Shown here piece by piece: positions 42,510-59,540 of a stretch of 64,000 nt of DNA. Position numbers and translations under genes: made by a program. Location: contig VGLJ01000011.1 in the NCBI GenBank assembly GCA_016866775.1, positions 1 to 64,000 on the forward strand, in the 5' to 3' direction. The notes under the pieces are model-generated. The model saw only the letters and a list, made by a program, of their open reading frames with translations. It had not been told where the DNA came from and made no database searches. This DNA is from Candidatus Rokuibacteriota bacterium (lineage in GTDB: Bacteria > Methylomirabilota > Methylomirabilia > Rokubacteriales > CSP1-6). Every line of letters starts with the position of its first letter. Position 1 is the first letter of the stretch.

Positions 42510-43274
42510 TCAATGCATCTGGGCGCCGCCGTCGGCGACCAGCGTCTGGCCGGTGATGAAGTCGCTCTCCGCCGAGCAGAAGAAGATGGCGGCCCCGACC
42601 ACGTCCTCCGGCACCTCCGTGCGCTTGATCGCGCGCGCCTGCAGGCGCTGCGCGTTCTGCGCGTCGCGCGCGGGATCGACGTCGTCCATGCTGATGATGA
42701 GCCCGGGCGCGATCGCGTTCACCGTGATGCGGTGCTCGCCCAGCTCGCGCGCCAGGGAGCGCGTGATGCCGATGACGCCGGCCTTCGACGTCACGTAGTG
42801 CAGCGCGTTCGGCGCCCCGTAGAACACGGTGCCCGAGCTGATGTTGACGATCTTGCCGTAGCGCCGCGCCTTCATCGCCGGCACGACGGCGCGGCAGCAG
42901 AGGAACACGCCGCGCACGTTGACGGCCATCAGCCGGTCCCACTCCTCGACCGGAATCTTCTCGAACGGCACGCGTGACATCGCCGGCCGCTGGAACACCG
43001 CGGCGTTGTTGATGAGGCCGTCGATGCGTCCGAAGCGGTCGAGCGTCGCCTGCGCCATCCGCTCGGTGTCGGCGGCGTCGGCCACGTCCGTGCGCACCGC
43101 CAGCGCGTCGTGCCCGTCCTTCGCCAGCGCGCGCACGAGATCGTCGGCGTGCGCCCGCTCGAGGTCCGCGACGACGACCTTCGCGCCCTCGCGCGCGAGC
43201 CCTTCGCAATACGCGCGGCCGATGCCTTGCGCGCCGCCCGTCACGATGATCACGCGGTCCTGCAACCGGCTCAT
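42510..43274 (-). CDS. Short-chain dehydrogenase/reductase of the grdA-grdC operon
   Basis: A 254-residue classical SDR: TGGAQGIGRAYC near residue 12, VVADLERA (NAD-type), NNAAVF, Ser in NISSGTVFYG, Tyr-x3-Lys in HYVTSKAGVIG, and FITGQTLVADGG. It lies 14 bases after grdA on the same strand, so it probably belongs to the same transcript as the selenoprotein A and C genes and the ABC transporter upstream. It may oxidise or reduce the substrate or product of the reductase system. Closely similar to the SDR at 34163. Confidence 0.88.
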   Translation of the reverse strand: MSRLQDRVIIVTGGAQGIGRAYCEGLAREGAKVVVADLERAHADDLVRALAKDGHDALAVRTDVADAADTERMAQATLDRFGRIDGLINNAAVFQRPAMSRVPFEKIPVEEWDRLMAVNVRGVFLCCRAVVPAMKARRYGKIVNISSGTVFYGAPNALHYVTSKAGVIGITRSLARELGEHRITVNAIAPGLIISMDDVDPARDAQNAQRLQARAIKRTEVPEDVVGAAIFFCSAESDFITGQTLVADGGAQMH

Positions 43275-43288
43275 GACAGCCTCCCGCT

Positions 43289-43750
43289 TTAGGTGGTCGC
43301 CGTCTTCCGCGCCTCGCGCAGGCCGGCGAGGATCGCGTCGCGATCGAGGCTCATCTCCATCAGCGCCACCTGCGCCTCGTAGACGTCGCCCGGCACCTGG
43401 TCTTTCACTTCCGGCTCGAACACGTGCAGCACGGGGAGCCCCAACGGGACTCCGGCCAACGGGCCCGCGTACGACGGATCACCGGTGACGACGGTCTGCG
43501 CGAGCGTCTGCGTGCTTTCCGCGTCGGGAGTGCCGAGCAACACCACCACGTCGCTCCCGTGCTCGTCCGCGACCCGCTTCACCGCCGCCTGATCCTCGAG
43601 GCCCATGGCGCCCGCCGCCGTTCAGACGTAACAGGCGGTCAGCGTGAGCACCACGTCGGCGCCCGCCTTGCTCGCGCATTCCGCCAGCGCGGGCCCCGGC
43701 ACGCCGTCGCGCTCGCCGAGCGCGATGACTTTCCTTCCTCGAAGCTCCAT
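43289..43750 (-). CDS. grdA: Glycine-reductase-type selenoprotein A (GrdA-like)
   Basis: Read through the in-frame TGA at 43622-43624, this is a 153-residue protein closely matching GrdA, the small redox selenoprotein that carries the carboxymethyl-selenoether from protein B to protein C. The motif is Cys40-Tyr-Val-Sec43 followed by TAAGAMGLEDQ, as in classical GrdA (CxxU then TAAGAM). The C-terminus (VPGDVYEAQVALMEMSLD) also matches. If TGA were a stop only 42 residues would be made. I see no clear small hairpin after this UGA. Start at ATG 43750; grdC begins upstream, 26 bases away. Confidence 0.92.
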
Positions 43751-43776
43751 GTCATCTCCTCCAGAGGCGCGCCTCT

Positions 43777-45216
43777 TCACCCGTTGCGCTCCACGATCAG
43801 CGAGATGCCGTCGGAGAGCTGGGTCATCCGTCCGAGGAAGAGGCTGCCCTTCCCCGTGAACATCGTACGCGTGAGCGTGCCCTTCGTGAGCCCCCGCAGC
43901 GCGTGGCCGAGGTACGGGATCGCCGAGGCGATGTGGCCCTGCGTGGGCGAGAACCCCGGCATGCCGCGCGTCCGCACGAACTGACCGATATCGGCGCGCT
44001 CGATCAGCTTCTCGACCACGGCCAGACTCGCGAGCGTGCGGTAGTTGTTGAGCGGCACGTTGCCGCTGCCCGCGGGCTCCGTCGCCTCCGGGTTGTGCAG
44101 CTCGAGCGAGAAGCGGTCGACGTCGAGCAGCGTGAGCCCGAGACGGCCGAGCGGCTCGGTGTAGAGCGCCTTCACCACCGCGAGCGGCGCCGAGCCCGAG
44201 CCGACCTCGTGACGACCGACCGCGTCGAGCCGCAGCACGGGCGAGGTTCCGTCGTCGCGCGCGACGTGCGCGGCGAAGCCGGCGAGGACGTCCTCGACGA
44301 TCGGCATCTCGTGCTTCAGGTGGCCCTGGAACTTCATGCCGAGCTTCGCGAGCGAGCCGCCCGCGAGGACCACCACGTCGTCGTGCAGCCCGGACGCGAC
44401 CATCGCGCCCGCGAGCATGAGCGCGTGCATCGGACCGCAGCAGAACGCCTTCACGTCGCTGCCGGTCGCGCGCGTGCACCCCGCCCATTCCGCCACGGCC
44501 TTCGCGACGTTGCCGCCGCCGCGCTGATAGCGGTCGCCCACGGCCTCCTCGCCGCAGTTGATGACGTACCGGACGTCCGTCGCCGCCACGGCACCCGGCC
44601 GCGCGAGGAGGTGACGGAGCGCGAGCGCCGCCGTCGCCTTGCACGCGAGGTTCTCCATCAGGACCTGGCCGGTGAGCGTGTCGTCCTCGTCGTGGCCCGG
44701 GAGCATGGCGCCGAGGAGACGGCCGTCGACGCCGAGCAGCGGCACCGCGCGATGCTTCTCGATCCGCTCGCGTATCACGTCGGGGGCGACGCCCGACGGC
44801 ACGGCCGGACGGCCGGAGTCGCGCCCGATGAGCGGATGCGTGTCGAGCGCGGTCCGCGCACGATCGGCGACGTCGCGATCGAGCGCGAGCAGGTCGAAGC
44901 CGTCGCACGCCGCCAGCAGCCCGAGGAATTCGTGCTCGGGCATGATCTCGCCGTCGGGGCCGAAGCGTTGGGCCCCGCCGACCGGATGGCGATGCCATGG
45001 CGTAGCGTGCGCGGCGAGGTCGTCGACGCCGACGTTGCCGATGAAGACCTGGTTCGGCGCGTAGCCGCACGCCGCGTCCCAGTCGCGGAGGTACGGAAGC
45101 AGGTAGCCGAGCGGGGCATCCACGCGCCGGAGCTCGCGCAGGGGCTTCGAGCCGAGCCTGACGAAGCTCGGCGCGTGCGCGAGCACGAGCGAGACGTCGC
45201 GGATGACCGGCCTCAT
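43777..45216 (-). CDS. grdC: Glycine-reductase-type component C, beta subunit (GrdC-like)
   Basis: A 479-residue protein of the GrdC family, a thiolase/FabH-like fold that receives the acyl group from selenoprotein A. Strong landmarks: VLAHAPSFVRLGSKPLRE at the N-terminus, INCGEEAVGDRYQRGGGN, ATGSDVKAFCCGPMHAL (a conserved Cys), LGMKFQGHLKHEMPIVEDVL and MPGFSPTQGHIASAIPYLG. In clostridia GrdC works with GrdD (PlsX-like) to release acetyl phosphate. No grdD is present in this window, so the final acceptor could be phosphate via a distant GrdD, or something else. It follows the ABC binding-protein gene by two bases. Confidence 0.9.
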   Translation of the reverse strand: MRPVIRDVSLVLAHAPSFVRLGSKPLRELRRVDAPLGYLLPYLRDWDAACGYAPNQVFIGNVGVDDLAAHATPWHRHPVGGAQRFGPDGEIMPEHEFLGLLAACDGFDLLALDRDVADRARTALDTHPLIGRDSGRPAVPSGVAPDVIRERIEKHRAVPLLGVDGRLLGAMLPGHDEDDTLTGQVLMENLACKATAALALRHLLARPGAVAATDVRYVINCGEEAVGDRYQRGGGNVAKAVAEWAGCTRATGSDVKAFCCGPMHALMLAGAMVASGLHDDVVVLAGGSLAKLGMKFQGHLKHEMPIVEDVLAGFAAHVARDDGTSPVLRLDAVGRHEVGSGSAPLAVVKALYTEPLGRLGLTLLDVDRFSLELHNPEATEPAGSGNVPLNNYRTLASLAVVEKLIERADIGQFVRTRGMPGFSPTQGHIASAIPYLGHALRGLTKGTLTRTMFTGKGSLFLGRMTQLSDGISLIVERNG

Positions 45217-45218
45217 CG

Positions 45219-46178
45219 TCAGGGCTTGTAGGTGACCTTCGCGGGCTGGAGCTTGCGCAGCAGCTCCGGATAGACGAACGCGTTGTAGTCGACGGGCTTC
45301 GCGAGCTTGCCCTGCCCCTTCAGCTGCGACTCGGCCAGCCGGAACATGTCGATCGTGGTGGGGCTCAGCTCCATGTCGAACGTGAGCTTCGTCATGAGCT
45401 GCTCGACCATCGACTGATCGAGATTCTTGAGGAAATTGGAGACGTCCCTGGCCGCGCGCTTGCGGTCCTTGTTGATGATGTCGGTCGCCTCGACGAGGGC
45501 CTTCATGAACCCTTCCGCCTGCGCCGGGTGCTTCGTGATCCATCCGCGATTCATGTAGATGTAGACACCCTGCTCCAGGATGCCTTCCTGATCCTTCAGG
45601 ATCTTCGTGTTCTTGACCGCGGCCAGCCCGCGCGTCACCCACGGCTCCCACACCGCGTACGCGTCGATGTTGCCGCGCTCGAGCGCCGCCACCATCTCCG
45701 GCGCCTCGACGTGGACGACCGTGTAGTCGGCCGGCTTGAGCTTCAGCTTGTCGATCATCGCCAGCCAGAAGACCTCGCCGCCGGAGCCGCGGGCGACGCC
45801 GACCTTCTTGCCCTTCAGCTGATCGAGATTGTCGATGTTGCGGCCGACGACCGCGAGCCAGCGCACCAGCCGCGTGGCCTGCGCGGCCACGACCACGTTG
45901 GGATCGAGGTTGTGGTTGGCGACGCCGGCGATCTCCGAGCCGAAGGCGGATTCGATCTGGCCGTTGACGAGGAAGGCCACCATCGCGGAGCCCGACGGCC
46001 CGGTGTTGATGCGGACGTCGAGCCCGTGCTTCTTGAAGAGGCCTTCCTCCTGCGCGACGTAGTAGGCGGAGAACACGGGGTCGACGCCCGTGGCGATCGT
46101 CATCTTCGTTTGCGCCCACGCGAGAACGCTCCACGCGAGGAGACCCACCACCAGGCACAGCGCGCCGCGAATCCTCAT
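45219..46178 (-). CDS. ABC transporter substrate-binding protein, SsuA/NMT1 type
   Basis: A 319-residue periplasmic binding protein of the sulfonate/nitrate/taurine group. Signal peptide residues 1-22 (LCLVVGLLAWSVLAWA). The mature part shows VFSAYYVAQEEGLFKKHGLDV, a family hallmark, then IESAFGSEIAGVANH and AYAVWEPWVTRG. It delivers a small organic compound to the permease and ATPase encoded upstream. Being sandwiched between these and grdC-grdA suggests that the ligand is the substrate of the selenoenzyme system or its precursor. Ligand identity unknown. Confidence 0.9.
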   Translation of the reverse strand: MRIRGALCLVVGLLAWSVLAWAQTKMTIATGVDPVFSAYYVAQEEGLFKKHGLDVRINTGPSGSAMVAFLVNGQIESAFGSEIAGVANHNLDPNVVVAAQATRLVRWLAVVGRNIDNLDQLKGKKVGVARGSGGEVFWLAMIDKLKLKPADYTVVHVEAPEMVAALERGNIDAYAVWEPWVTRGLAAVKNTKILKDQEGILEQGVYIYMNRGWITKHPAQAEGFMKALVEATDIINKDRKRAARDVSNFLKNLDQSMVEQLMTKLTFDMELSPTTIDMFRLAESQLKGQGKLAKPVDYNAFVYPELLRKLQPAKVTYKP

Positions 46179-46203
46179 GACGTTTTCCTCCCGGGCCGAC
46201 CGC

Positions 46204-46965
46204 CTAGGTGGTCGGCGAGTACTTCCCCGCGAACGTGTAGATGCTCCAGCGGAACATACGATCCACGGCGAACCCGAGCAACCCCAGGGTCACCAGCGAG
46301 ACGAAGATGTCGTCGACCAGCATGAACAGCCGCCCGTCCCACAGCATCTTGCCGAGCCCGTCGTTGGCGGCAATGAGCTCCGCGGCCACGATGGTCGTGA
46401 AGGAGTTCGCCATGGCCAGCCGCATCCCGGTGAGGATGTACGGCAGCGTCGCCGGCAGCGCCACGTGGAGGAAGATCTGCGCCCGCGTGGCGCCGAGCGA
46501 TTCCGCGGCGCGGATCTTGTTGGGCGCGATGGCCGAGACGCCCGCGGCCGTGTTCAGGATGACGATGAAGATCGTCGTGTAGATGATGAGGAAGATCTTG
46601 GACGCCTCGCCGATGCCGAACCAGATGACGGCGACGGTGATCATCGCCACCGACGGGATGAAGCGCAGGAACTCGGTGTACGGCTCCAGGAGCTTGCGCA
46701 CGGGGCGGAACGAGCCCATCGCCAGGCCGATCGGCATGCCGAGCACCGAGCCCGCGATGAACCCCATCAGGATGCGCTGGAGGCTCGCCGAGAGGTTGTC
46801 ACACAGGACGCCGTTGCGCAGGAGCACGACGCCTTTCTTGAACACGACCGCGGGCGGCGGAAACAGCACGGAGCTCACGAGGTACACGGAGGCGAGGTGC
46901 CAGATGACGAACAGGCTCGCGAACCCCACCACGTACCCGCCGTACACGCTCCACAGGCGCCGCAT
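46204..46965 (-). CDS. ABC transporter permease, SsuC/TauC type
   Basis: A 253-residue inner-membrane permease with about six helices of the BPD_transp_1 family. The EAA loop is readable as AAESLGATRAQIFLHVALPATLPYILTG (near residue 150), where the ATPase docks. It lies between the ATPase and the binding protein, with a 2-base gap to the former. Length and layout are normal for SsuC/TauC. Confidence 0.9.
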   Translation of the reverse strand: MRRLWSVYGGYVVGFASLFVIWHLASVYLVSSVLFPPPAVVFKKGVVLLRNGVLCDNLSASLQRILMGFIAGSVLGMPIGLAMGSFRPVRKLLEPYTEFLRFIPSVAMITVAVIWFGIGEASKIFLIIYTTIFIVILNTAAGVSAIAPNKIRAAESLGATRAQIFLHVALPATLPYILTGMRLAMANSFTTIVAAELIAANDGLGKMLWDGRLFMLVDDIFVSLVTLGLLGFAVDRMFRWSIYTFAGKYSPTT

Positions 46966-46967
46966 CG

Positions 46968-47750
46968 CTAGCGCGTCCGCGCGATGGCCGCGGCGACCTC
47001 GTCGCGGATCATCGCGTAGACCTGCCTGTAGTACGCGAGGAACGTGTCGTCCGTGCGGTTGCGCGCGCCGTTCAGCGCCACGTCGACCACGCCCTTCACG
47101 CCGGAGCGCGGACCGGCGCGCATCACGCCGATGCGCTGCCCGAGCGTGACCGCCTCGTCGATGTCGTGGGTGATGAACAGGACGGTGGTGCGCTCGGCCT
47201 GCCAGATATTCGCGAGCTCCTCCTGCATCAGCGCGCGTGTCTGCGCGTCGAGCGCGGCGAACGGCTCGTCCATCAGCAGCATCGTCGGCTCGTTCGCGAG
47301 CACCCGCGCGATCTGGATGCGCTGCTTCATGCCGCCGGACAGCTCGGCGGGATACTTCTGCGCCTGGCCCGTGAGACCGACGAGATCGAGGTACCGCATC
47401 GCTCGCTCTCGGCGCTCCGCCTTCGGGACGCGCCGCATGCGCAGGCCGAACTCGACGTTCTCGATCGCGGTGAGCCAGCCGTACAGCGAGTCGTCGCCTT
47501 GAAACACCACGGCCCGGTCGCGACTCGCGCCGGTGACCGGGCGGCCGTCCATCAGGATCTCGCCGGCCGTGGGCGCCTCGAATCCCGCGAGCATCCTCAG
47601 CACGGTCGTCTTGCCGCAGCCGCTCGGCCCGAGCAGGCAGAAGAACTCCCCGGCCTCGATGTCGAGGCTGAAGTGCTCGACCGCGTGATAGTCGACGCCC
47701 TGCAGCGACCGGTACGTCTTCTCGACGTCACGAAACGAGACGAGCGGCAT
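46968..47750 (-). CDS. ABC transporter ATP-binding protein, SsuB/TauB type
   Basis: A 260-residue ATPase: Walker A LLGPSGCGKTTVLR near residue 42, Q-loop VVFQGDDSLYGWL (an aspartate replaces the common E/P region), signature LSGGMKQRIQIARVLA, Walker B LLMDEPFAALD and the His switch FITHDIDEA. The C-terminal 60 residues are typical of the nitrate/sulfonate importers. The start at ATG 47750 faces away from vapB across a 66-base AT-rich gap, which probably contains promoters for both. Confidence 0.92.
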   Translation of the reverse strand: MPLVSFRDVEKTYRSLQGVDYHAVEHFSLDIEAGEFFCLLGPSGCGKTTVLRMLAGFEAPTAGEILMDGRPVTGASRDRAVVFQGDDSLYGWLTAIENVEFGLRMRRVPKAERRERAMRYLDLVGLTGQAQKYPAELSGGMKQRIQIARVLANEPTMLLMDEPFAALDAQTRALMQEELANIWQAERTTVLFITHDIDEAVTLGQRIGVMRAGPRSGVKGVVDVALNGARNRTDDTFLAYYRQVYAMIRDEVAAAIARTR

Positions 47751-47780
47751 GGCAGTCGAGAGCCTAGCAGAGCGGCTCGA

Positions 47781-47816
47781 GGATATCCATGTCGACATCA
47801 TGATATATTTCGATCG
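47781..47816 (+). promoter_or_regulatory. Putative vapBC promoter and operator
   Basis: An AT-rich island in GC-rich surroundings. It holds the 10-bp palindrome ATGTCGACAT at 47789-47798 and a TATATT (-10 like) at 47804-47809, just 7 bases before the vapB start, which would give a very short leader. The palindrome is the expected kind of operator for VapB autoregulation and could also affect the divergent ABC operon. Confidence 0.5.
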
Positions 47817-48011
47817 ATGGCCAAGCGTCTGGTGGACATCGACGAGAGGGCGCTCGCTGCCGCGAAAGCGGAGCTCGGGACGAAGACCTTGAAGGATACG
47901 GTCAACGAGGCGCTGCGCCGCGCGGCGCCCGCCCGTGATCGCCGCGTCTCGAAGGCGCTGGATACGCTCGCGAAGGCGAAGCTGCGGGATCGGGCCGCGG
48001 CGTGGCGCTGA
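47817..48011 (+). CDS. vapB: VapB-type antitoxin
   Basis: A 64-residue ribbon-helix-helix antitoxin of the VapB / DUF2191 type. MAKRLVDIDERALAAAKAELGTKT is the RHH DNA-binding part (KRLVDID strand, then helix), followed by a basic C-terminal tail that would wrap the toxin. The vapC start lies 10 bases inside its 3' end, as usual for the pair. ATG at 47817, immediately after the AT-rich promoter island. Confidence 0.85.
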   Translation: MAKRLVDIDERALAAAKAELGTKTLKDTVNEALRRAAPARDRRVSKALDTLAKAKLRDRAAAWR

Positions 48012-48415
48012 CGCATCTCGTCGATACCAGCGTTCTGACCCGGCTGGCTCATCCAACGGTCCGCACCGCGCTCGAACCACTTGCCGCCGCCGGCCAGGTC
48101 GCACGCGCCGGTATTTCCGACCTCGAGGTCGGCTTCTCGGCGCGCAACCTTTCCGAGTGGACGCGGCTCACGTCCGCGCTCGCGGCATTCCCCCTCATCG
48201 AAACCGAAGCCGGGCACGTGCAACGTGCTCGACAGGTTCAGCGCTTGCTTGCCGGCCGTGGGCTCCGAGGGCGGAAAGTTCCGGATCTGCTGATCGCCGC
48301 CGCCGCCGAGGCGAACGGCCTTACCCTGCTCCACTACGACGCGGATTTCGACATGATCGCCCGCGTGACGGGGCAGCCTTGCACGTGGATCGCGCCGGCT
48401 GGCACGATCGACTAA
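48002..48415 (+). CDS. vapC: VapC-type PIN-domain toxin
   Basis: A 137-residue PIN ribonuclease. Acidic active-site residues are readable: Asp in HLVDTSVLTR (near residue 8), Glu in ISDLEVGFS, Asp in KVPDLLIAAAAE (near residue 94) and Asp in LHYDADFDMI. VapC toxins cleave tRNA or rRNA. The start is GTG overlapping vapB. Its stop is adjacent to the stop of the convergent DsbA-like selenoprotein gene with no gap. The pair sits between the two grd operons and may stabilise this region. Confidence 0.88.
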   Translation: MALTHLVDTSVLTRLAHPTVRTALEPLAAAGQVARAGISDLEVGFSARNLSEWTRLTSALAAFPLIETEAGHVQRARQVQRLLAGRGLRGRKVPDLLIAAAAEANGLTLLHYDADFDMIARVTGQPCTWIAPAGTID

Positions 48416-49111
48416 TCATCGCGACGTTCCGCTCCCTTCGATCGTGCTCTGGCCGGCGACCGCACGCTGCGCCTCGGGCGCCAGCGGGATCACGCCGCCA
48501 GGCTCGCCGGCCAGGATCCAGTCGATGAGCTCGCGGTAGCGCTCCGTCGGAACCGCGCCCGGGATCGAGAGCTTCTCGTTCAGGATCACCGTCGGCAAGC
48601 CCGAGACGCCGAACCACGCCGCGCCCTCGGCGCAGTCGCGCAGCACGGCTTCGTACGCGTCGCCCGCGAAGTCGGCGTCGAAGCGCGCGAGGTCCAGGCC
48701 CGCCTCGCGCACCAGGGTTCGCAGGACGTCCGGGCGCGCGATGTCGAGATGGTCGCGGAAGAGCGCGGTGAAGAGCCGCGCGTGGAAGCGCTGGAACGGC
48801 TCGCCGCCCTGACGCTCGGCGCACTTCGCCGCGGCCAGCGCGGGAATGCTCGACGACGGCAGCGGCGTGTCGAGCGCGGGCGGCACGAACGCGGCGCGCC
48901 GCTCCTGGGCGCCGATGCGCGCCCAGCCTTCGCGCGTCTTCTGCGTCACGCGGCGGTCCGGCTGCGCGGTCGGGATCAACGGGAACGTACGCCAGTGGAG
49001 ACTGACGCGGCTCCCGTACGCCTCCTCGATCTCACGCAGCCGCACCGCGGCGTTGTAGCACCACGGTCAGAGGTAGTCGGAGAAGACGTCGAGGCGGACC
49101 GGCGAAGTCAT
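48416..49111 (-). CDS. DsbA/FrnE-like selenoprotein with a UPWC active site
   Basis: A 231-residue thioredoxin-fold protein of the DsbA-like FrnE/HCCA-isomerase group, read through an in-frame TGA at 49067-49069. The N-terminus is LDVFSDYL, then Sec15, then PWCYNAAVRL, so the redox motif is Sec-Pro-Trp-Cys where relatives have CPWC. The cis-Pro loop is present (FGVSGLPTVILNEK, about residue 180). No signal peptide, so it is cytoplasmic. Its ATG overlaps the stop of grdB-1 (ATGA), showing translational coupling to the selenoenzyme. A 6-bp stem with 10-base loop begins right after the UGA. A likely role is electron delivery to, or repair of, the Grd selenoproteins, in place of thioredoxin; this is inference. 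Confidence 0.87.
49045..49066 (-). promoter_or_regulatory. SECIS-like hairpin after the Sec codon of the DsbA-like gene
   Basis: On the minus strand CCGTGG pairs with CCGCGG (one G-U pair) around the 10-base loop TGCTACAACG, starting directly after UGA. It differs from the compact triloop hairpins of the other Sec genes and is a weaker SECIS candidate. Confidence 0.4.
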
Positions 49112-50424
49112 GCCGACGAAAAGACCGTGGGCTTCGCGACCTCCGTCCGGAGCGCCTGCAGCGCCTGCTCGACGATGCGCCGTCGCAACGCCTTTTCGTC
49201 GTCGGGCGACAGCTCCGCATTCCCGAGCGGGTGGATGATGCCCGCGGCGGGCACGATGCGGTTCGCGCCGACCATGACCGCGACCGGCGTCATCGTCGAC
49301 ACCTGCACCGTCGGCAGGCCCGCACGCTCGAGCTCTCGCGCGATCGCTGCGCCGCAGCGAGTGCTCGTCCCTCAGGTGGACGTGAGGATCACGGCGTCGA
49401 CGCCCGCCGCGCGCAGCTTCTCGGCGATCTCGGCGCCCATGCGAGCACTCTGCGCCAGCGTGGTGGCGACGCCGACCGTCGAATACACGGTCTCGTGCAG
49501 CTTGCCGATCGCGCCGCGCTGCTCGAGCTCGCGCGCGACGTCGACCGGCACGAGCCGGTGCGGGTCCTGCTTGACCCACGTCGTGTCGTAGCCGCGATGC
49601 GGGTTCTCGTACTGCGCGGCGTCGAGCGCGTCCTTGCCTTCGATGCTGTACGCGCCGTAGCGCGTCGCGTTCAGCGCCTCGATGCCGTCGGGATTTCCCT
49701 TCGGGACGAGACCGCCGTCGGTGACGAGCGCGATCGTCGCGCCCTCCAGCGTCTTCACCAGCCTCGGCGCCGGCACGCTCGCGAACGACGGGCGCGGCAC
49801 CTCGCTCGCGAACGGCCGGCCGGCGAGCTTGTCGAGCAGCATGGCGGTCGCGCGCTCGGCGGCGGTGGTCTCCGTGACGACGTTGCGGGTCACGCCGCGC
49901 GCGAAGTAGCCCTCGGCGGCCGGCGCGCCGATCTTCTCGCCTCGCGCGAGCTTGAGCCCGAGCGCGACGAGCCGCTGCGCCTCGGGCAGCATCCGCGTGG
50001 CCTCGGCGCCGGTCTGCACGATGTAGACCGACCGGCGATACAGATCCACGCCGGGATTCTCCGCGTGCATGCCGGTGACGGCGGGGACCGTGAGCTGCGC
50101 CTGCACCGCCGCGCAGAGCGCGCCGCACGCCACGCCGTAGCGGCCGGCGAGGAACGCGGGACCGGCGACCACGAGATCGGGCTTCGCGGCGGCCACGAGG
50201 GCCACCATCGCGGCGAGCGCGCGGTCCGACTGCTCGGCGGCGTAGTTGTCGCCGCAGATCACCGTGGCGACCACGGTGCCCGCGTCGCCCAGCGCCTGCT
50301 GCACGGCGCGCGCGGCGCCGACCGCGCCGTCCCGGCTCAGCGGCTCGACCCCGGCCTTCTCCTCGCCGCCGATCTGGCCGAAGAACTGGTTGACGTAGCA
50401 GACGACGCGCAGCCGCTCCGGCAT
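49108..50424 (-). CDS. grdB: Glycine/sarcosine/betaine-reductase-type component B, gamma subunit (GrdB-like, copy 1), selenoprotein
   Basis: A 438-residue protein read through TGA at 49372-49374. It closely follows GrdB along its length: RVVCYVNQFFGQIGGEEKAG at the start, VICGDNY, VAGPAFLAGRYG, ALVTDGGLVPKGNPD, then DAVILTST-Sec351-GTSTRCG and a C-terminus with MVGANRIVPAAGI and IHPLGN. GrdB's Sec attacks the substrate bound on GrdE and passes the acyl part to GrdA. The motif here is UxxSxxC; copy 2 has UxxCxxC. A 7-bp triloop hairpin lies 11 bases after the UGA. Start and stop overlap grdE-1 and the Sec-DsbA gene (ATGA on both sides). Substrate specificity unknown. Confidence 0.93.
49344..49360 (-). 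promoter_or_regulatory. SECIS-like hairpin after the Sec codon of grdB-1
   Basis: On the minus strand TCGCTGC-GGC-GCAGCGA forms a perfect 7-bp stem with a GGC triloop, beginning 11 bases after UGA, the distance expected for SelB recognition. The coding sequence there (RCGAA) also constrains these bases. Confidence 0.6.
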
Positions 50425-51710
50425 CACCGCACCTCCGCCATCATCGTCGTGGCGCCGATCTGCTCGATGGCGCCGCACAGCGTTCCGTAGGTCGCGCGCA
50501 TCTCCCCCGAGAGCTTCGGCGCCAGATCGTCGGCGCCGATCACGCGCTCCATGGCGGGAAACGCGAGGAGCTCCTGGCCGCCGCCGACGTTGACCATCGC
50601 GTCCACCCCGGGGAAGTCGAACAGGATCATGCCCTCGGCGCTGCCGTCGGTCGACATGTCCTCGACGATGACCGTCGTCTTCACGCCGAGCGCCTCGCAG
50701 TGCGCGGCCGCCTGGGCCATGTCCACGTGCGGCGCGCCGCCGCCGATCTTCGTGAGGATCGCGCCGTCCGCGCCGAGCGTGTGTGCCACGAGCCCCGCGG
50801 TGAGGAACGCCGACCGGACGCGCTCGGGCTCGGTCGCGTGAGCCACCGTGACGACGACGCCGGCGAACCAGAGCGTGCGGCCGTGCCGCGCGTAGAGCGA
50901 GCGGATGATCGGATGGTGCTGGATCGCCCACGTGGTGGCGTTGCGGCCCATGAACCCGCGGACCACGCCGCCGTCGAGCACTTCGTTCGGGTGGACGATC
51001 GTCGGGAGCATCCGCCGGATCGGATCGCCGTAGAGGATCCCTTCGTCGACACCGGTCGGACGCTGATGCGAGTGGATCTGGAAGACGTACGCCACACGCG
51101 GCAGGTGCGCGAGCTCCGCGGGGACGCGCGGTGACGGCGGCAGCTCGAACACCTCGGTGCGTGCGGGCTCCGCATCGCGTGCCGCCTGCGCGAGCACGAC
51201 ACCGGCCTTCAGCGCCGCGAGCCTCACGGCCGCGAGATACTCGGAGCGCGCCGTGCCCGCCGCAGGCCACGCGGAGATCACGAGGTTGTGCGTGCGGCCG
51301 AACCGCGACAGCTCGGCGTTCGGTCCCGCCATGTCGATCACCGCGAGCGCGCCCGCCACCTGGTCGGATTGCTGATCCGTCGCGACGACCGCCACGCCCG
51401 CGATCGCGGCGGTACGCCCGTGCCCCGCCTTCGCGATGGGCCCGAGCACGCCGGGAAAGTCGACGCCGCCGTCCAGCTTCGCGCGCGGCGCGATCACGTC
51501 GAAGACCCGCCCGATCCGCACGCGCTCGCCCGGGTGGACGGCGTCGAGTCGCACGCCGGCGAGCCGCGGATCGGTCGAGAGCTGCGCGCGCAGCGCCTCG
51601 AGATCGACCTCGAGGCGCCCGCCGGTGAGCCGCGCCGGCGCGCCCGCGAGCGCCGTGGCAGGCGCGACCGTGAGCTCGCGCACCTCGAACCACCGAAGCT
51701 CCAGCCTCAT
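50424..51710 (-). CDS. grdE: Component B proprotein-like subunit (GrdE-like, copy 1), apparently without pyruvoyl cysteine
   Basis: A 428-residue protein of the GrdE length and pattern: ELRWFEVRELTVAP at the start, DAVHPGERVRIGRVFDVIAPR, VIDMAGPNAE, PTIVHPNEVLDGGVV, IIRSLYARHGRTL, and LGADGAILTKIGG. Classical GrdE is cut at Asn241-Cys242 to create a pyruvoyl group that binds the amino acid. In the aligned segment (LDGGVVRGFMGRNATTWAI) there is no Cys; the only two cysteines lie far downstream. So this copy should not make a pyruvoyl group, and the substrate need not be an amine. ATGA overlap with grdB-1. It follows the hydroxyacid dehydrogenase by 8 bases. Confidence 0.88.
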   Translation of the reverse strand: MRLELRWFEVRELTVAPATALAGAPARLTGGRLEVDLEALRAQLSTDPRLAGVRLDAVHPGERVRIGRVFDVIAPRAKLDGGVDFPGVLGPIAKAGHGRTAAIAGVAVVATDQQSDQVAGALAVIDMAGPNAELSRFGRTHNLVISAWPAAGTARSEYLAAVRLAALKAGVVLAQAARDAEPARTEVFELPPSPRVPAELAHLPRVAYVFQIHSHQRPTGVDEGILYGDPIRRMLPTIVHPNEVLDGGVVRGFMGRNATTWAIQHHPIIRSLYARHGRTLWFAGVVVTVAHATEPERVRSAFLTAGLVAHTLGADGAILTKIGGGAPHVDMAQAAAHCEALGVKTTVIVEDMSTDGSAEGMILFDFPGVDAMVNVGGGQELLAFPAMERVIGADDLAPKLSGEMRATYGTLCGAIEQIGATTMMAEVR

Positions 51711-51718
51711 GCCGTGCG

Positions 51719-52696
51719 CTAGCCCAGCAGGCCCCGGAGCTCTGGGACCACCCATAGAGGGTCCTGCCCCGACTCCATGCGCAGGATGTTGTCGAAGCCG
51801 TTGCGGTACGCCTTCGTCCAGTTGTCCCACGTCGGCCCGGCGCTGTGCGGCGTGAGCGCGACGTTCGGCAGCGAGAACAATGGATGGTTCTGCTTCGGCG
51901 GCTCCTCGACCATCACGTCGAGGCCGGCCGCGGCGATCGTCCCGGAGGTGAGCGCCTGGTGGAGCGCGTCCTCGTCGACCACGGGGCCGCGGCACGTGTT
52001 GACGAGGATCGCGCTCTTCTTCATCATCGCGAACTGCTTCGTGGACATCATCTTCCGCGTGACGTCGGTCAGGGGCACGTGGAGCGTGATGACGTCCGAG
52101 GTGCGGAGGATCTCGGTCAGCAGCGCGTAGCGCACGCCGAGCGTGTCCTCCTGGTCCTCGCTGAGCCGGACGATGTCGTAGTAGCGCACGTCCATGTCGA
52201 AGCCCTGCACCCGGCGCGCGACCTTCTTGCCGATGTTGCCGAGGCCGATGATCCCCAGCCGCTTGCCCTCGACCTCATAGGTGCGCGTGGCCACGGCGTC
52301 GCCCACGCGCCACTTCCCCGCCGCGACGTTGTTGTGGTGCCACACGAGCTTCTTGAGCACCGCGAGCATGAGCATCACCGCGTGCTCGGCGACGGCGACG
52401 GAGTTGGCGCCGCCGTTGTTCGACACCGGCACCCTCGCCTTGCGCGCGGCCTCGATGTCGACGCGGTCGTAGCCCGCGCTCGTGAGCTGGACGAGCTTGA
52501 GCTTCGGCGCCGCGCGGAAGAACTCGTTGCCGATGCCGGTCCGCGGCGAGCCGAGGTAGTACTCGGCCTCGCCGGCGACGTCGTAGAACTCCGGCTTGCT
52601 CGGATCGGCGACGATCAGCTCCAGGCCGGGCGGCAGCAGATCCTGGGCGATCTCCATGATGGGCGCGGGCTGGGGCGGCGTCAGGATCTTGGTCAC
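51719..52696 (-). CDS. D-isomer-specific 2-hydroxyacid dehydrogenase
   Basis: A 325-residue NAD-dependent dehydrogenase of the D-lactate/phosphoglycerate type. The nucleotide motif is LGIIGLGNIGKKVARR near residue 150, the catalytic Arg is in LVNTCRGPVVDE, the Glu in GLDVMVEEPPK and the His in VALTPHSAGPTWDN. It interconverts a 2-hydroxy acid and a 2-keto acid. Placed between a peptide-type binding protein and grdE-1 on the same strand, it may make or use the substrate of the selenoreductase, or supply the redox balance. Spacing to both neighbours is short. Confidence 0.88.
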   Translation of the reverse strand: MTKILTPPQPAPIMEIAQDLLPPGLELIVADPSKPEFYDVAGEAEYYLGSPRTGIGNEFFRAAPKLKLVQLTSAGYDRVDIEAARKARVPVSNNGGANSVAVAEHAVMLMLAVLKKLVWHHNNVAAGKWRVGDAVATRTYEVEGKRLGIIGLGNIGKKVARRVQGFDMDVRYYDIVRLSEDQEDTLGVRYALLTEILRTSDVITLHVPLTDVTRKMMSTKQFAMMKKSAILVNTCRGPVVDEDALHQALTSGTIAAAGLDVMVEEPPKQNHPLFSLPNVALTPHSAGPTWDNWTKAYRNGFDNILRMESGQDPLWVVPELRGLLG

Positions 52697-52718
52697 GATG
52701 GCCTCCTTGGGACGAGGC

Positions 52719-54263
52719 TCACTTCGCCTTGAGCTTCAGGTCTTCGTACGGCGCCGACCACGGATAGTCGCTGATGAGCCCGAGTCCCGACTCCGCCACG
52801 CGCGGGCCGTAGGCGGGGAGAAGGGCGAGCTGCCAGATCGGAAGCACCATGACCTTCTCGTGGACGAGCCGCTGGACGCGATGAAGGATCGCCTCGCGCT
52901 TCTTCGGATCGAGCTCGCCCGCCTGTTCCCGGAAGAGCCCGTCGATGTCGGGATACCCTCCGTAGGCGTAGGCGCCTCCCGAGATCACGAACGGCTCCAT
53001 GCGCGTGGCCGCGTTGCCGAAGATGCCGCTCAAGCCGTAGATCACGTTCTTCAGCTTCTTCTCCTGGTACGCCTTGACGAACGCCGCGCGCTCGAGCGGG
53101 CGCAGCGTCGCCTTGATCCCGACGGCGCGGAGGTCGTTGAGGATCGGCTCGGCATACGTGGCGGCGCCGGCGTCGGCCCACAGGTCGCCCGCGTCGAACC
53201 CGTTGGGATACCCCGCTTCCGCGAGGAGCTGCTTCGCCTTCGCCGGATCGTGCGGGTAGAGCGGCGGCTGCCAGAAGAAATCGGCGCTGACCGGGATGAT
53301 GGTGCCGGTGATCCGGGAATGGCCGAGCGTCAGGGCCTGGTTGACGCCCTGGCGATCGACGGCGTGGCTGGCCGCGAGGCGCACGCGGCGGTCGCGCCAG
53401 GGCGAGGTCGCGTCCCACTGGTCGGCGAAGACGAGCCAGTGCGTGGACATGAACAGCGTCGGCCTGAGCGTGAGCCCGGGCGTCCGCTTCACCTCCTCGG
53501 CCAGCTCGCCGGTGACGTTGTAGGCGATGTCGGCTTCTCCGCGCTTGAGCATCGCGAGGCGGGTGGTGCCGTCGGGGACCGCCTTGAGGACCAGGCGCTT
53601 CACGCTCGGCGTCTTGCGCCAGTACCCGTCGAACGCCTCGAGCACCAGCTCGATGCCGGGAGTGAAGGAAACGAAGCGGTAGGGGCCGGCGCCGATCGGC
53701 GCCTTCTTGAAGCCGTCGTCACCCACCTTCTCGACGTACTTCTTCGGCACGATCCACGCGGCGCCGGTGGCCGGGGTGCCGTAGTACGTCAGGAAGTCGG
53801 GCCACGGCTGCTTGAGCCGGACGCGGACGCGCCCGGGATCGGGGGTGTCGACGGACGCCACCTTCTCCTTGAGCACTTTCGACGACACGCCGCGATAACG
53901 CTCGAACGAGTACTTGACGTCGTCGGCCGTCAGCAGCTCGCCGTTGTGGAACTTCACGCCCTTCCGGAGCACGAACTCGTAGACGAGTCCGTCCGCCGAC
54001 GCGGTCCACGACTCCGCGAGGCTCGGCGTCATGATCTTGCCAGGCATCGGCTTCACGAGGCCGTCGTGCAGCGCGTAGAGGAACATGAACGGCGTGATCA
54101 GGCCCGGCGTCTCCGCGGGCTCGAACAGCGAGGGCGCAGGCGTGAAGTGCAGCGCCCACGTCATCTGTCCCGCCGGCGGCTCGGCCGCGTGCGTTTCGGC
54201 GGGCGCGGCAGCCATGAGAGCCAGCACCCCGGCCAGGATCACCCCCGTGCGTCGCCTCGTCAT
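52719..54263 (-). CDS. ABC transporter substrate-binding protein, family 5 (oligopeptide/dipeptide type)
   Basis: A 514-residue SBP_bac_5 protein with a signal peptide (RRRTGVILAGVLALMAAAPAETHA). Typical segments: LAESWTASADGLVYEFVLRKGVKFHNGELLTADDVKYSFERYRG near residue 85, AAWIVPKKYVEKVG, and FKKAPIGAGPYRFVSF. Such proteins bind peptides, nickel complexes, opines or other solutes. The ATG at 54263 is preferred over 54275 because it begins MTRRRTG. No family-5 permease genes are adjacent; it lies inside the grd-like run and may capture the substrate of that system. Confidence 0.87.
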   Translation of the reverse strand: MTRRRTGVILAGVLALMAAAPAETHAAEPPAGQMTWALHFTPAPSLFEPAETPGLITPFMFLYALHDGLVKPMPGKIMTPSLAESWTASADGLVYEFVLRKGVKFHNGELLTADDVKYSFERYRGVSSKVLKEKVASVDTPDPGRVRVRLKQPWPDFLTYYGTPATGAAWIVPKKYVEKVGDDGFKKAPIGAGPYRFVSFTPGIELVLEAFDGYWRKTPSVKRLVLKAVPDGTTRLAMLKRGEADIAYNVTGELAEEVKRTPGLTLRPTLFMSTHWLVFADQWDATSPWRDRRVRLAASHAVDRQGVNQALTLGHSRITGTIIPVSADFFWQPPLYPHDPAKAKQLLAEAGYPNGFDAGDLWADAGAATYAEPILNDLRAVGIKATLRPLERAAFVKAYQEKKLKNVIYGLSGIFGNAATRMEPFVISGGAYAYGGYPDIDGLFREQAGELDPKKREAILHRVQRLVHEKVMVLPIWQLALLPAYGPRVAESGLGLISDYPWSAPYEDLKLKAK

Positions 54264-54314
54264 GCCGGCCTCCATGTCATCGACGCGGTGGCGCGGACCA
54301 CCACGAAGAGAACG

Positions 54315-55625
54315 TCACTCGGTGCAGCTCAGGCTGCCGAACCCATAGTGGTCGTCGTACCGCCACGGCGGCGGCAGCGGGCCGGCGGTCGGCAGGCTCG
54401 CGTCCGCGCCGGCGTGCAGGCCGATCGCCGAGCCGCGCAGGATCTTCTTCGTCGGCACCCCGATCACGCGCGCCACCGCGGGCGCCTCCGGCACGGCGAG
54501 CGTGACGTTCTTGAAGAAGCTCGTGCTCACGATGGCGTCGGCCTCGGGCAAGGGCTCGAGCATCGTCGGCGCGCCCTCGGTGGCGTCGTCCTCGCTCGTG
54601 AGGAAGACGGTCTTGATCCCGAGGCGCTCGCAGGCCTGGATGCTCCGCACCACCTCGATGAACTCGTTGCCGCCGGCGTCCCACGTGACCACCGCGCCGT
54701 CCGCGCCGAGCTGCTTGGCGAGCTTGGCCGTCTGGTTGGCCATGAGCTGCTTCTCGGTCTGCGTGGTCCACTCCGTGCGCAGCGAGATCACCCCGAGGAA
54801 GTTCCAGTCCCGGCCGTGCCGTCTATAGAGGTCGAGAAACAACGGGTTGTTGGCGACCGTCCACGACATGGCGTACGCCGTGCGGTACGGCCCCGTGAGC
54901 GCGCCGTCGAGGATCTCGTTGGGATGGAGGTACCACGGCGGCGTGAGCTGCGTCAGCCCGTAGGTCGCCGTGCAGAACGCCGTCGGCGATCCGGACATCG
55001 CCTGCGGCGAGTGCACGCACCAGATGTAGACGACCTTCGGCAGCGACGGATCGACCGGCCCGAGCTCGAACACTTCCGTCTCGGGCGGCGTCAGCCCGCG
55101 CACCGCTTCGGCGAGGCGATCCGCGACCGTCAGCGCCGCCTTGTGCACGGCGTAGTTCTTCACCTCTTCGCCCAGGCCGGCGTCGGGCTCGACGACCAGG
55201 CAGACGTTGAAGAGCCGCGCATACGGGTACATCTCGCCGTAGGGGCCGGACATGTCGAGGTACGTCTCGACGAAGTCGCCGCCGGCGTCGTGCCAGTTGA
55301 CGCTGGAGACCTCGACGACGCCGAGGCCCGCGAGCCGGTGCGTGCGGCCGGTGCCGACGGTCGTGATCTCGCGGTCGCAGATGCCCGGATAGCAGACGCC
55401 GCGCCCCTCGACCTTCACGCGCGGCTCGATGACGTCGCGCACCGGCCAGATGCGCACGGATTCGCCGGGATGCGCGATCTCGAGCTCGGCGGTGGCGATG
55501 CGCGGGTCCTGGCGCACGGCGGCGAGGACGGCGTCGCGATCGATGGTGAGGCGGCCGGCGTCGTACCGCGTGCTCGCGCCGAACGTGACGTCGTGAACCG
55601 GGAAGGTGCCCATCTCGAGACGCAT
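54315..55625 (-). CDS. grdE: Component B proprotein-like subunit (GrdE-like, copy 2), apparently without pyruvoyl cysteine
   Basis: A 436-residue GrdE-family protein: RLEMGTFPVHDVTFGAST, IAHPGESVRIWPVRDVIEPRVKVEG (very close to classical GrdE), YLDMSGPYG, WYLHPNEILDGALTG, NNPLFLDLYRRHGRD, and GADGAVVTWDAGGNEFIEV. At the position where Cys242 of clostridial GrdE gives the pyruvoyl group the sequence reads GALTGPYRTAYAMSW, with no cysteine; cysteines at about 203 and 218 lie before it. It is therefore also a poor candidate for self-cleavage. Its start overlaps the stop of grdB-2 (ATGA). It differs clearly from copy 1, so the two B components probably serve different substrates. Confidence 0.88.
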   Translation of the reverse strand: MRLEMGTFPVHDVTFGASTRYDAGRLTIDRDAVLAAVRQDPRIATAELEIAHPGESVRIWPVRDVIEPRVKVEGRGVCYPGICDREITTVGTGRTHRLAGLGVVEVSSVNWHDAGGDFVETYLDMSGPYGEMYPYARLFNVCLVVEPDAGLGEEVKNYAVHKAALTVADRLAEAVRGLTPPETEVFELGPVDPSLPKVVYIWCVHSPQAMSGSPTAFCTATYGLTQLTPPWYLHPNEILDGALTGPYRTAYAMSWTVANNPLFLDLYRRHGRDWNFLGVISLRTEWTTQTEKQLMANQTAKLAKQLGADGAVVTWDAGGNEFIEVVRSIQACERLGIKTVFLTSEDDATEGAPTMLEPLPEADAIVSTSFFKNVTLAVPEAPAVARVIGVPTKKILRGSAIGLHAGADASLPTAGPLPPPWRYDDHYGFGSLSCTE

Positions 55626-56959
55626 CACTTGCGCTCCTGCATGGGATCGAAGAGCGTCGGCCCGGGCACCGCGACCGTGATCGCGGCGAGCGCCGTCCGC
55701 ACGATGTGCATCCCGAACGCGTAGTCCTTCTCGGGGCTCAGTGTCGGATCGCCGCACACGTGCTCGATGCGCGCGCCGCGGATGACCCGGTTGGCGCCGG
55801 TCGTCAGCGCGAAGTTGTAGATGGCGGAGATCATCCCCACCGGAATCCCCACCCGCTCGATCTCTTTCGCGATCGTTGCGCCGCAACGATTGCAGGTCCC
55901 TCAGGTGGCGACGAGCAGCGCGCCGTCGACCCCTCCTTGCTTCAGGTCCGCGGCGATGCTGCGCCCGTGCCCCGCGGAGACCGCGACCGGCGTGCTGACG
56001 CCCGGCAGCGCGTAGATGTGCTCGTGCACCGCGCCGATCGCGCCCTGGCGCTCGAGGTCGCGCAGGAACGACAGCGGCAGGATGTAGTTCGGGTTGCTGT
56101 TCACGAGGTGGTTGAAGTATCCCGCGTGATATGCCTCCCACTCTTTCGGCGAGAGCGATTCCAGCTCCGCGACCGAGTGGCGGTGATACCGCACGGCGTT
56201 CGCCGACACCTGCTTGTCGGGGTTGCCCTTCCGCACGAGCCCGCCGGTGGTGACCATGGCGATGCGCGCGCGCGTGAGGTCGGCGATCGGGGCCGCGGGC
56301 GGCACACGTTCGGGCGCCGAGTACGGCACTTCCGAGCGATACGGCCGGCCGTGCAGCTTGTCGAGGAGCATGTCGAGCGCGCGCTGAAAGCCGGGACGGC
56401 CGCGGTCGTACACGCGGCGCCGTCCTTGCGGCAGATAGCCTTCGACTTCCGCCGGGCCGAGCGTCTCGCGACGGCCGAGACGTTGCGCGAGTGGAGCGAG
56501 CGCGGCAAGCGCCGCCGGCATCGACGTGGTCGACGTGCCGGTCGGCAGGATCGTGATCCCGCGGCGCGCCGCGGACGCGCCGGGGTTCTCCGGATGCATC
56601 GCGGTGACCGCGGCCAGGCCGCGATCCTGCGCGATCCTGCACACCTGCGCGCACGCGAGCCCGTAGCGGCCGGAGCCGAAGGCGGGGCCGGCAACCACGA
56701 CGTCGGGCTTGAGGCGGTCCAGCTCGGTGGCCACGGCGCGAGCGAACTCCTCCGCGCGGTCGTTGGCGAAGTTGTCGCCGCAGACGATCGTGGCCTCGAT
56801 CCGCGCGCCGGCGCCGAGCGCGGTCTCGAGCACCCGCCCCGGGCCGACGGCGCCGGGCGTCACGCTGACGCCGACGTCCGCCTTGTCCTCGCCCCCGACG
56901 CCCCCGAAGAACTGATTGACGTAGTGCACGACGCGGACCGGGCTCTTCATGCGCGCCAT
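55625..56959 (-). CDS. grdB: Glycine/sarcosine/betaine-reductase-type component B, gamma subunit (GrdB-like, copy 2), selenoprotein
   Basis: A 444-residue GrdB-family selenoprotein read through TGA at 55901-55903. It begins RVVHYVNQFFGGVGGEDKAD, followed by IVCGDNFAND, VAGPAFGSGRYGLAC, MVTTGGLVRKGNPDK and YIPLSFLRDL-like middle parts, then GALLVAT-Sec353-GTCNRCGATIAKEIERVGIP. The motif UxxCxxC is intact. Past residue 375 it departs from copy 1 (ALTTGANRVIRGARIEH), so the substrate pocket may differ. A perfect 8-bp triloop hairpin lies 10 bases after the UGA. First gene of the run; ATG at 56959, with MKSPVRV at 56950 as alternative. Confidence 0.93.
55872..55890 (-). promoter_or_regulatory. 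SECIS-like hairpin after the Sec codon of grdB-2
   Basis: On the minus strand ATCGTTGC-GGC-GCAACGAT forms a perfect 8-bp stem with a GGC triloop, starting 10 bases after UGA. It shares loop and spacing with the grdB-1 hairpin although the stem bases differ at paired positions, so base pairing itself looks conserved. Confidence 0.65.
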
Positions 56960-59418: not shown

Positions 59419-59540
59419 TGACGCCTCCCGCCGGCACGGCCATGGCCGCAGCGTGGTTCGGAGTATGCCTGAGCGGGATGACGTCAGGATCGGCCGTGCC
59501 GCCGACCTTGATCCCGGCGTGCGCGGCTCACGCGCGGCCG

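Follow-up and report, generated by a model that had tools for sequence, protein, structure and literature searches.

The textbook example of how strict fermenters make ATP through acetyl phosphate is glycine reductase. The clostridial enzyme (GrdABCDE) includes a GrdA with a CxxU motif, a GrdB containing selenocysteine (Sec), a GrdE-type partner, GrdC and GrdD, and in the betaine (GrdH/GrdI) and sarcosine (GrdF/GrdG) reductases alternative B components feed one GrdA. GrdE of Clostridioides difficile carries a pyruvoyl group at residue 242 (PMC9908766). GrdI and FarE, the pyruvoyl-free E subunit of the fluoroacetate reductase FarB/FarE of Synergistota, are both reported to be unprocessed (PMC10838667). 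Here we analyzed a 64,000-nucleotide stretch of DNA (the window; GenBank contig VGLJ01000011.1, positions 1–64,000) from an uncultured bacterium of soil (Candidatus Rokuibacteriota), which at positions 43,289–56,959 holds a grd locus with one GrdA, one GrdC, two divergent GrdE–GrdB pairs and no GrdD.

The locus shares with clostridial glycine reductase the CxxU-type GrdA, the Sec-containing GrdB, the GrdE-type partner and GrdC, but differs in lacking GrdD, the C-terminal tail of GrdC, Cys242 of GrdE and any thioredoxin (Trx) or thioredoxin reductase (TrxB) gene in the cluster, and its GrdB proteins pass neither the model nor the motif for the glycine type. As in betaine and sarcosine reductases, alternative B components would feed one GrdA, and the loss of Cys242 recalls the unprocessed GrdI; both B pairs nevertheless score below the GrdH, GrdF and GrdG cut-offs and lie outside the betaine clade. 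From FarB/FarE, whose host also has grdABCDEX, the window system differs by a FarE score below cut-off and by other neighbors. Judged by its sequence, the system is not a classical clostridial one, and no description of a GrdD-less system was found in a search of open PubMed Central papers (subscription literature lay outside it). The reading we favor, with somewhat better than even confidence, is that the locus represents a GrdD-less branch of the glycine/sarcosine/betaine reductase family, in which two non-pyruvoyl B components charge one GrdA, GrdC releases acetyl to coenzyme A (CoA) and not as acetyl phosphate, and a co-encoded DsbA resets GrdA.

Gene content and selenocysteine codons

The window is part of contig C11 of a metagenome-assembled genome (MAG) of 5.13 Mb in 159 contigs (97.5% complete, 1.6% contaminated). 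This single MAG is referred to below as the own genome, and its relatives are mostly MAGs too. Genome-wide gene searches were carried out with profile models, and window genes were read with TGA as Sec. The components of the proposed system, including matches to selenocysteine insertion sequence (SECIS) elements, are as follows.

55625–56950, minus strand: GrdB2, selenoprotein B of pair 2 (PF07355, 376 bits; TIGR01918, 407 bits; Sec TGA at 55901–55903; motif UGTCNRC)
55863–55900, minus strand: SECIS_4 directly behind the GrdB2 Sec codon (Rfam RF01990, 42.3 bits; gathering threshold 38)
54315–55625, minus strand: GrdE2, partner of GrdB2, overlapping the GrdB2 stop (PF09338, 282 bits; no processing loop or Cys242)
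50424–51710, minus strand: GrdE1 (PF09338, 290 bits; AlphaFold model with a predicted local distance difference test score, pLDDT, of 88; no processing loop or Cys242)
49108–50424, minus strand: GrdB1, selenoprotein B of pair 1 (PF07355, 463 bits; TIGR01918, 523 bits; Sec TGA at 49372–49374; motif UGTSTRC)
49334–49371, minus strand: weak SECIS_4 match behind the GrdB1 TGA (26.4 bits, sub-threshold)
48416–49111, minus strand: DsbA-family thioredoxin-fold protein, overlapping GrdB1 by 4 bases (PF01323, 83 bits; TGA at 49067–49069 in a UPWC active site)
43777–45216, minus strand: GrdC, component C beta (NF040746, 594 bits, above the cut-off of 450; lacks the C-terminal tail of GrdD-partnered GrdC)
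43289–43750, minus strand: GrdA (PF04723, 188.6 bits; NF040748, 192 bits, above the cut-off of 130; Sec TGA at 43622–43624; motif CYVU)

Cut-offs of the broad glycine/sarcosine/betaine/D-proline reductase family were thus passed by GrdA (NF040748), GrdC (NF040746) and GrdB (TIGR01918). A preliminary description of this DNA had named the GrdA, the GrdC, the two divergent GrdE–GrdB pairs, an SsuABC-type importer (45219–47749), a family-5 binding protein, a 2-hydroxyacid dehydrogenase and a short-chain dehydrogenase (SDR); all were recovered with Pfam and NCBIfam models, on the minus strand and with boundaries at or very near those it gave. It understated the case in three respects treated below, namely the shared loss of GrdD with truncation of GrdC, the loss of the GrdE cysteines, and the presence of a (seleno)DsbA where other loci have thioredoxin.

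The in-frame TGAs of GrdA and both GrdBs had been proposed to encode Sec. U occupies the Sec column in 92 of 93 aligned GrdA sequences and in all 81 aligned GrdB sequences, SECIS_4 is found at the same place behind the TGA in two relatives (L045 and L047), and the own genome carries tRNA-Sec, SelA, SelB and SelD, with SelA adjoining SelB. Because of this column conservation, the SECIS_4 element behind GrdB2 and the Sec machinery, the TGAs are, on sequence evidence, Sec codons and not chance stops; the conserved U column rules out chance readthrough. The preliminary description had named a genome lacking Sec machinery as a refuting outcome, and its proposal withstood this check.

Other candidate selenoproteins were also seen in the own genome. 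SelD (C31:24695–25639) is read through one TGA, as in 4 other Rokubacteriales genomes tested, and is probably itself a selenoprotein. A PrdB-like candidate (L051, 9904–11097, on C30) has an in-frame TGA between two open reading frames (ORFs) and scores 146 bits with TIGR04483 (cut-off 300); a similar gene adjoins GrdC in L107 (8735–9928).

Absence of GrdD and truncation of GrdC

The preliminary description found no grdD, trx or trxB in the window, and this was confirmed. Nor is grdD present elsewhere in the own genome as judged with PF02504, which matches one protein only, and that is PlsX-like. The GrdD model NF040747 gave only weak cross-hits, with none of the 30 genomes that have a related GrdC or GrdA (own genome included) reaching its cut-off. 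That the model works is clear because 46 of 150 control genomes, drawn from the phylum of one relative, pass the same cut-off with scores of up to 601 bits.

Ten of the GrdD-containing control genomes, with 12 GrdC copies, were used for comparison. Every one of these copies adjoins GrdD in the vicinity of TrxB and Trx-like genes, and every one has a C-terminal tail (e.g. DKEEVRKMIAEAMRSFANTLKAE) reaching 33–43 residues past the reference point. The tail is missing from all 83 GrdCs in the GrdD-less set, which extend at most 22 residues (median 7). The two sets are split at a 100% branch of the GrdC tree; this and the other trees were quick searches with support from the Shimodaira–Hasegawa-like approximate likelihood ratio test (SH-aLRT) only. 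Since tail and GrdD co-occur, the tail, a C-terminal helix, is presumed to act as a GrdD-docking element, and it offers a one-look sequence test for the type of system in a genome. An assembly gap was judged unlikely to explain the missing grdD, as 30 genomes lack the gene and GrdC is tail-less. In these sequences the absence of GrdD is a trait common to all related genomes tested, matched by truncation of GrdC.

Two B components without the GrdE processing cysteines

In canonical GrdEs, cysteines lie at or about positions 242 and 246 within VSGNCVSACDKN. On alignment, both are gone from GrdE1 and GrdE2, with Gly/Met and Thr/Arg at the two columns, and the loop is shortened. The GrdE tree places GrdE1 and GrdE2 in separate clades and needs three losses of the cysteines and loop. 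Because the cysteines are lost, and FarE and GrdI are likewise reported to be unprocessed, the sequences point to substrates for which no Schiff base is required. The idea that Ser/Thr might supply the pyruvoyl instead was not favored, the T/S-aromatic pair after the loop being present in canonical GrdE as well. Sequence searches of the PDB with GrdE1 and GrdB1 gave no match, and the GrdE1 model found no convincing fold match there (best E 0.018).

Models for the described substrates were not satisfied by either pair. The glycine GrdB model TIGR01917 gave 480 bits for GrdB1 and 351 for GrdB2 (cut-off 602), and the betaine GrdH model 471 and 368 bits, respectively (cut-off 775, with a GrdH control passing at 800). 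Across the GrdH and GrdF models (cut-offs 775 and 800), the window B proteins scored 367–505 bits. The sarcosine GrdG model gave 217–227 bits (cut-off 780) and the fluoroacetate FarE model 164 and 138 bits (cut-off 675). GrdB1 and GrdB2 also fail the published GrdB and GrdF motifs (PMC9751293), the latter being applied without a characterized GrdF as positive control; the GrdB motif is matched by 8 of 12 canonical GrdB copies and by three from the GrdD-less set (L088, L103 and L112). The possibility raised earlier, that the pairs might fall inside known clades with a complete classical operon elsewhere, was not borne out: GrdB1 and GrdB2 fall into two clades, neither of which holds the glycine or betaine references (the tree had no sarcosine reference), and no grdD operon was found in the genome. 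Because the GrdB/GrdE pairs sit in separate clades, we infer a different compound for each B component, and the two B clades may mark new substrates. Elsewhere in the family, an Ammoniphilus B subunit scored 728 bits against the GrdH cut-off of 775.

A DsbA-family gene with an active-site TGA

The DsbA-family gene, missed in the preliminary description, has a TGA at codon 15, the first codon of its CxxC motif, reading SDYL-U-PWC. Among same-position orthologues this codon is TGA in loci L058 and L059 and TGC in L056, L057, L060 and L061, and the reading frame upstream of it is conserved; such alternation is a typical sign of a Sec/Cys pair. Reviews list a DsbA-like selenoprotein (PF01323, UxxC; PMC9312934, PMC13188914), and the likeness lies in the DSBA domain with a putative Sec in UxxC. 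The window gene differs in overlapping GrdB1 within a grd operon, and the parts of these reviews that were consulted mention no grd link.

Across 86 searched loci (the window among them), thioredoxin genes occur in 31, thioredoxin reductase in 21 and glutaredoxin (Grx) in 3. Close relatives of the window DsbA occur in the window and in six Rokubacterial loci of the kind described below as type 1, an eighth match (L110) being weak and distant, and a locus-level search found no Trx, TrxB or Grx gene in the window or in these six. Because DsbA occurs in type-1 loci without such genes, the sequences suggest that it serves GrdA as reductant; a thioredoxin encoded elsewhere in the genome could also do so.

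Proposed mechanism and alternatives

Following the clostridial enzyme, GrdB1–GrdE1 and GrdB2–GrdE2 would each bind a small acid of the X-CH2-COOH type without a cysteine-derived pyruvoyl group, the selenolate of the B component would displace X, and the carboxymethyl group would be passed to the single GrdA. Reduction of the selenoether on GrdA would yield an acetyl thioester on GrdC, probably at Cys259. The acetyl group would then leave to CoA by a reversal of the FabH acylation half-reaction and enter respiratory metabolism instead of yielding acetyl phosphate for ATP, and the (seleno)DsbA would take the role of thioredoxin in re-reducing oxidized GrdA.

The CoA outlet is proposed because GrdC appears to have a FabH/thiolase fold with an invariant cysteine. 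Its predicted model (pLDDT 91.8) is closest to FabH with acetyl-CoA, OleA, SpoVAD and thiolases, and the invariant Cys259 falls within the FabH-aligned region. It is also proposed because searches of the own genome found none of the parts of an acetyl phosphate route: GrdD, the presumed docking helix on GrdC, acetate kinase and phosphotransacetylase (PF01515). Of 26 GrdD-less genomes (own genome included), 15 gave no acetate kinase match; all 5 GrdD-containing genomes tested gave one. The own genome has two full-length heme-copper (cytochrome) oxidases, as do other Rokubacterial, Bacillales and Entotheonella genomes tested; none was found in the Syntrophus and Acetothermia members tested, and none of three GrdD-containing genomes tested had one over cut-off. 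Transfer of acetyl from Cys259 to CoA is thus, by the model, most plausibly the simplest outlet.

Several observations weigh against this reading. Matches to the acetate kinase family do occur in the remaining 11 of the 26 GrdD-less genomes (weak in one), so that these might make acetyl phosphate by another route. The GrdC–FabH fold match is modest (template modeling score 0.49–0.55 by target length), and PlsX, PduL-type phosphotransacylases or other acyl acceptors are possible in place of CoA. At the DsbA TGA there is no Rfam SECIS match, and predicted folding energies, uninformative here as they were behind the GrdA codon, gave no evidence of a SECIS either.

The main alternative, which we regard as unlikely, is a GrdD-less system with plain acetate release, in which the GrdC thioester is hydrolyzed and the pathway serves as an electron sink or for detoxification. 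It fits the same failure to find GrdD, acetate kinase and phosphotransacetylase, and GrdB/GrdE relatives in Cloacibacillus convert fluoroacetate to acetate and fluoride (PMC10838667); GrdC, however, retains the invariant Cys259 along with a fold suited to passing acyl groups to CoA or acyl carrier protein, and a wasted thioester needs no conserved GrdC.

Quite improbable is a transferred classical glycine/sarcosine/betaine reductase that still makes acetyl phosphate, its grdD lost in assembly, left unassembled or replaced by PlsX. GrdA and GrdC do meet family cut-offs, PlsX, a relative of GrdD, is encoded in the own genome, and that genome is a MAG. Yet GrdD is absent from all 30 related genomes under a working model, the GrdC tail is missing throughout the GrdD-less set, searches of the own genome found neither acetate kinase nor phosphotransacetylase, and both B pairs lack the GrdE cysteines and pass none of the models and motifs for glycine, sarcosine and betaine.

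Least probable of all is that the DsbA TGA is a genuine stop codon or results from misassembly, leaving a truncated gene or one with an internal start outside the system, since, although a 209-amino acid standard-code ORF begins downstream of it and no SECIS match marks it, the window, L058 and L059 share it at the exact codon that is TGC (CPWC) in four orthologues, with the upstream frame kept, and the short form would have no active site.

Distribution of the GrdD-less system

GrdA was found in 9 of 60 related genomes searched (own genome included), and the nearest GrdC relatives, at 83–87% identity, are Candidatus Rokuibacteriota records. Rokubacterial loci have two layouts: type 1, hydroxyacid dehydrogenase–GrdE1–GrdB1–DsbA–(other)–GrdC–GrdA, with the dehydrogenase conserved upstream of GrdE1 (L058–L061), and type 2, GrdB2–GrdE2–GrdC–GrdA. 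The window combines both B types with a type-1 GrdC/GrdA (83–92% identical). A scan of GTDB genomes gave 230 GrdC relatives, and the loci of the best 80 were read. These 80 include Chloroflexota, Myxococcota, Thermodesulfobacteriota, Bacillales, Entotheonella, Acidimicrobiia, Acidobacteriota and others, and in many of them the E, B, C and A genes stand in a row, with trxB and trx interleaved in Bacillales.

More tentatively, and at somewhat less than even confidence, we suggest a widespread second Grd lineage without acetyl phosphate, in which a tail-less GrdC delivers acetyl to CoA in respiring bacteria of several phyla that assimilate or respire small substituted acids; the window would add pyruvoyl-free B pairs acting on substrates new to the family and a selenocysteine DsbA as reductant. 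If so, the selenium chemistry would be separated from substrate-level phosphorylation, given that the phosphate-transferring subunit is gone, acetate kinase is often missing and oxidases are present, and Grd chemistry would extend to soil and marine bacteria and to Bacillus-type genomes with oxidases.

Bacillales with a GrdD-less cluster plus TrxB and Trx are L062, L066, L077, L080, L083, L096, L099, L101 and L115. Two B/E pairs, or parts of them, stand in one cluster in L105 and L092 (a Chloroflexi and a Blastocatellia genome).

Transporters and other neighboring genes

The remaining genes of the locus are as follows.

52719–54275, minus strand: family-5 extracellular solute-binding protein (SBP5; PF00496, 259 bits)
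51719–52696, minus strand: D-2-hydroxyacid dehydrogenase (PF02826, 215 bits; below all NCBIfam cut-offs)
46968–47749, minus strand: ATP-binding cassette (ABC) importer ATPase (from ORF and sequence; co-directional with the permease gene, gap 2 bp)
46204–46965, minus strand: ABC importer permease (PF00528, 99 bits)
45219–46178, minus strand: SsuA/NMT1-type substrate-binding protein (SBP), 2 bp upstream of GrdC (PF09084, 80 bits; TIGR01728, 118 bits, below the cut-off of 163.5)
42510–43274, minus strand: SDR, 14 bp downstream of GrdA (PF13561, 207 bits)

The spacing suggests two transcription units: GrdB2–GrdE2–SBP5–hydroxyacid dehydrogenase–GrdE1–GrdB1–DsbA (gaps of at most 39 bp and three overlaps) and ABC ATPase–permease–SBP–GrdC–GrdA–SDR (gaps of at most 26 bp).

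The preliminary description held that a non-clostridial organism uses this selenium chemistry through two B components and one A/C pair, with substrates imported by the linked transporters. Host, divergent B components and single A/C pair all stood, but a general link to import could not be upheld: in the window SsuABC shares an operon with GrdC (2 bp gap), yet other genes fill the interval between DsbA and GrdC in the type-1 loci L043, L044, L058, L059 and L061. Neighbors elsewhere, as read from sequence, are TRAP-like genes in L114 and L048 and TctABC-like genes in L100. The linked importer, unconserved in orthologous loci and with neighbors differing among members, was therefore set aside, SsuABC being a weak substrate clue.

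Just downstream of GrdA, the type-1 loci L058 (12749–13438) and L059 (13231–13923) have an AroM gene (PF07302, tested in L058), and a gene that looks similar lies near grd in Brevibacillus L101 (13350–14024). In the window, the 666 bp between the two grd units (47749–48415) hold, on the plus strand, a gene pair that reads like a VapBC toxin–antitoxin, and an amidase-family gene (PF01425, 95 bits) is found just upstream of GrdB2 at 57106–59440 on the minus strand. In marine Chloroflexi, polysaccharide-deacetylase-like genes (that of L079 Pfam-tested) adjoin GrdB2/E2-type genes (L079, 7599–9484; L087, 15734–17631) and are a possible substrate clue.

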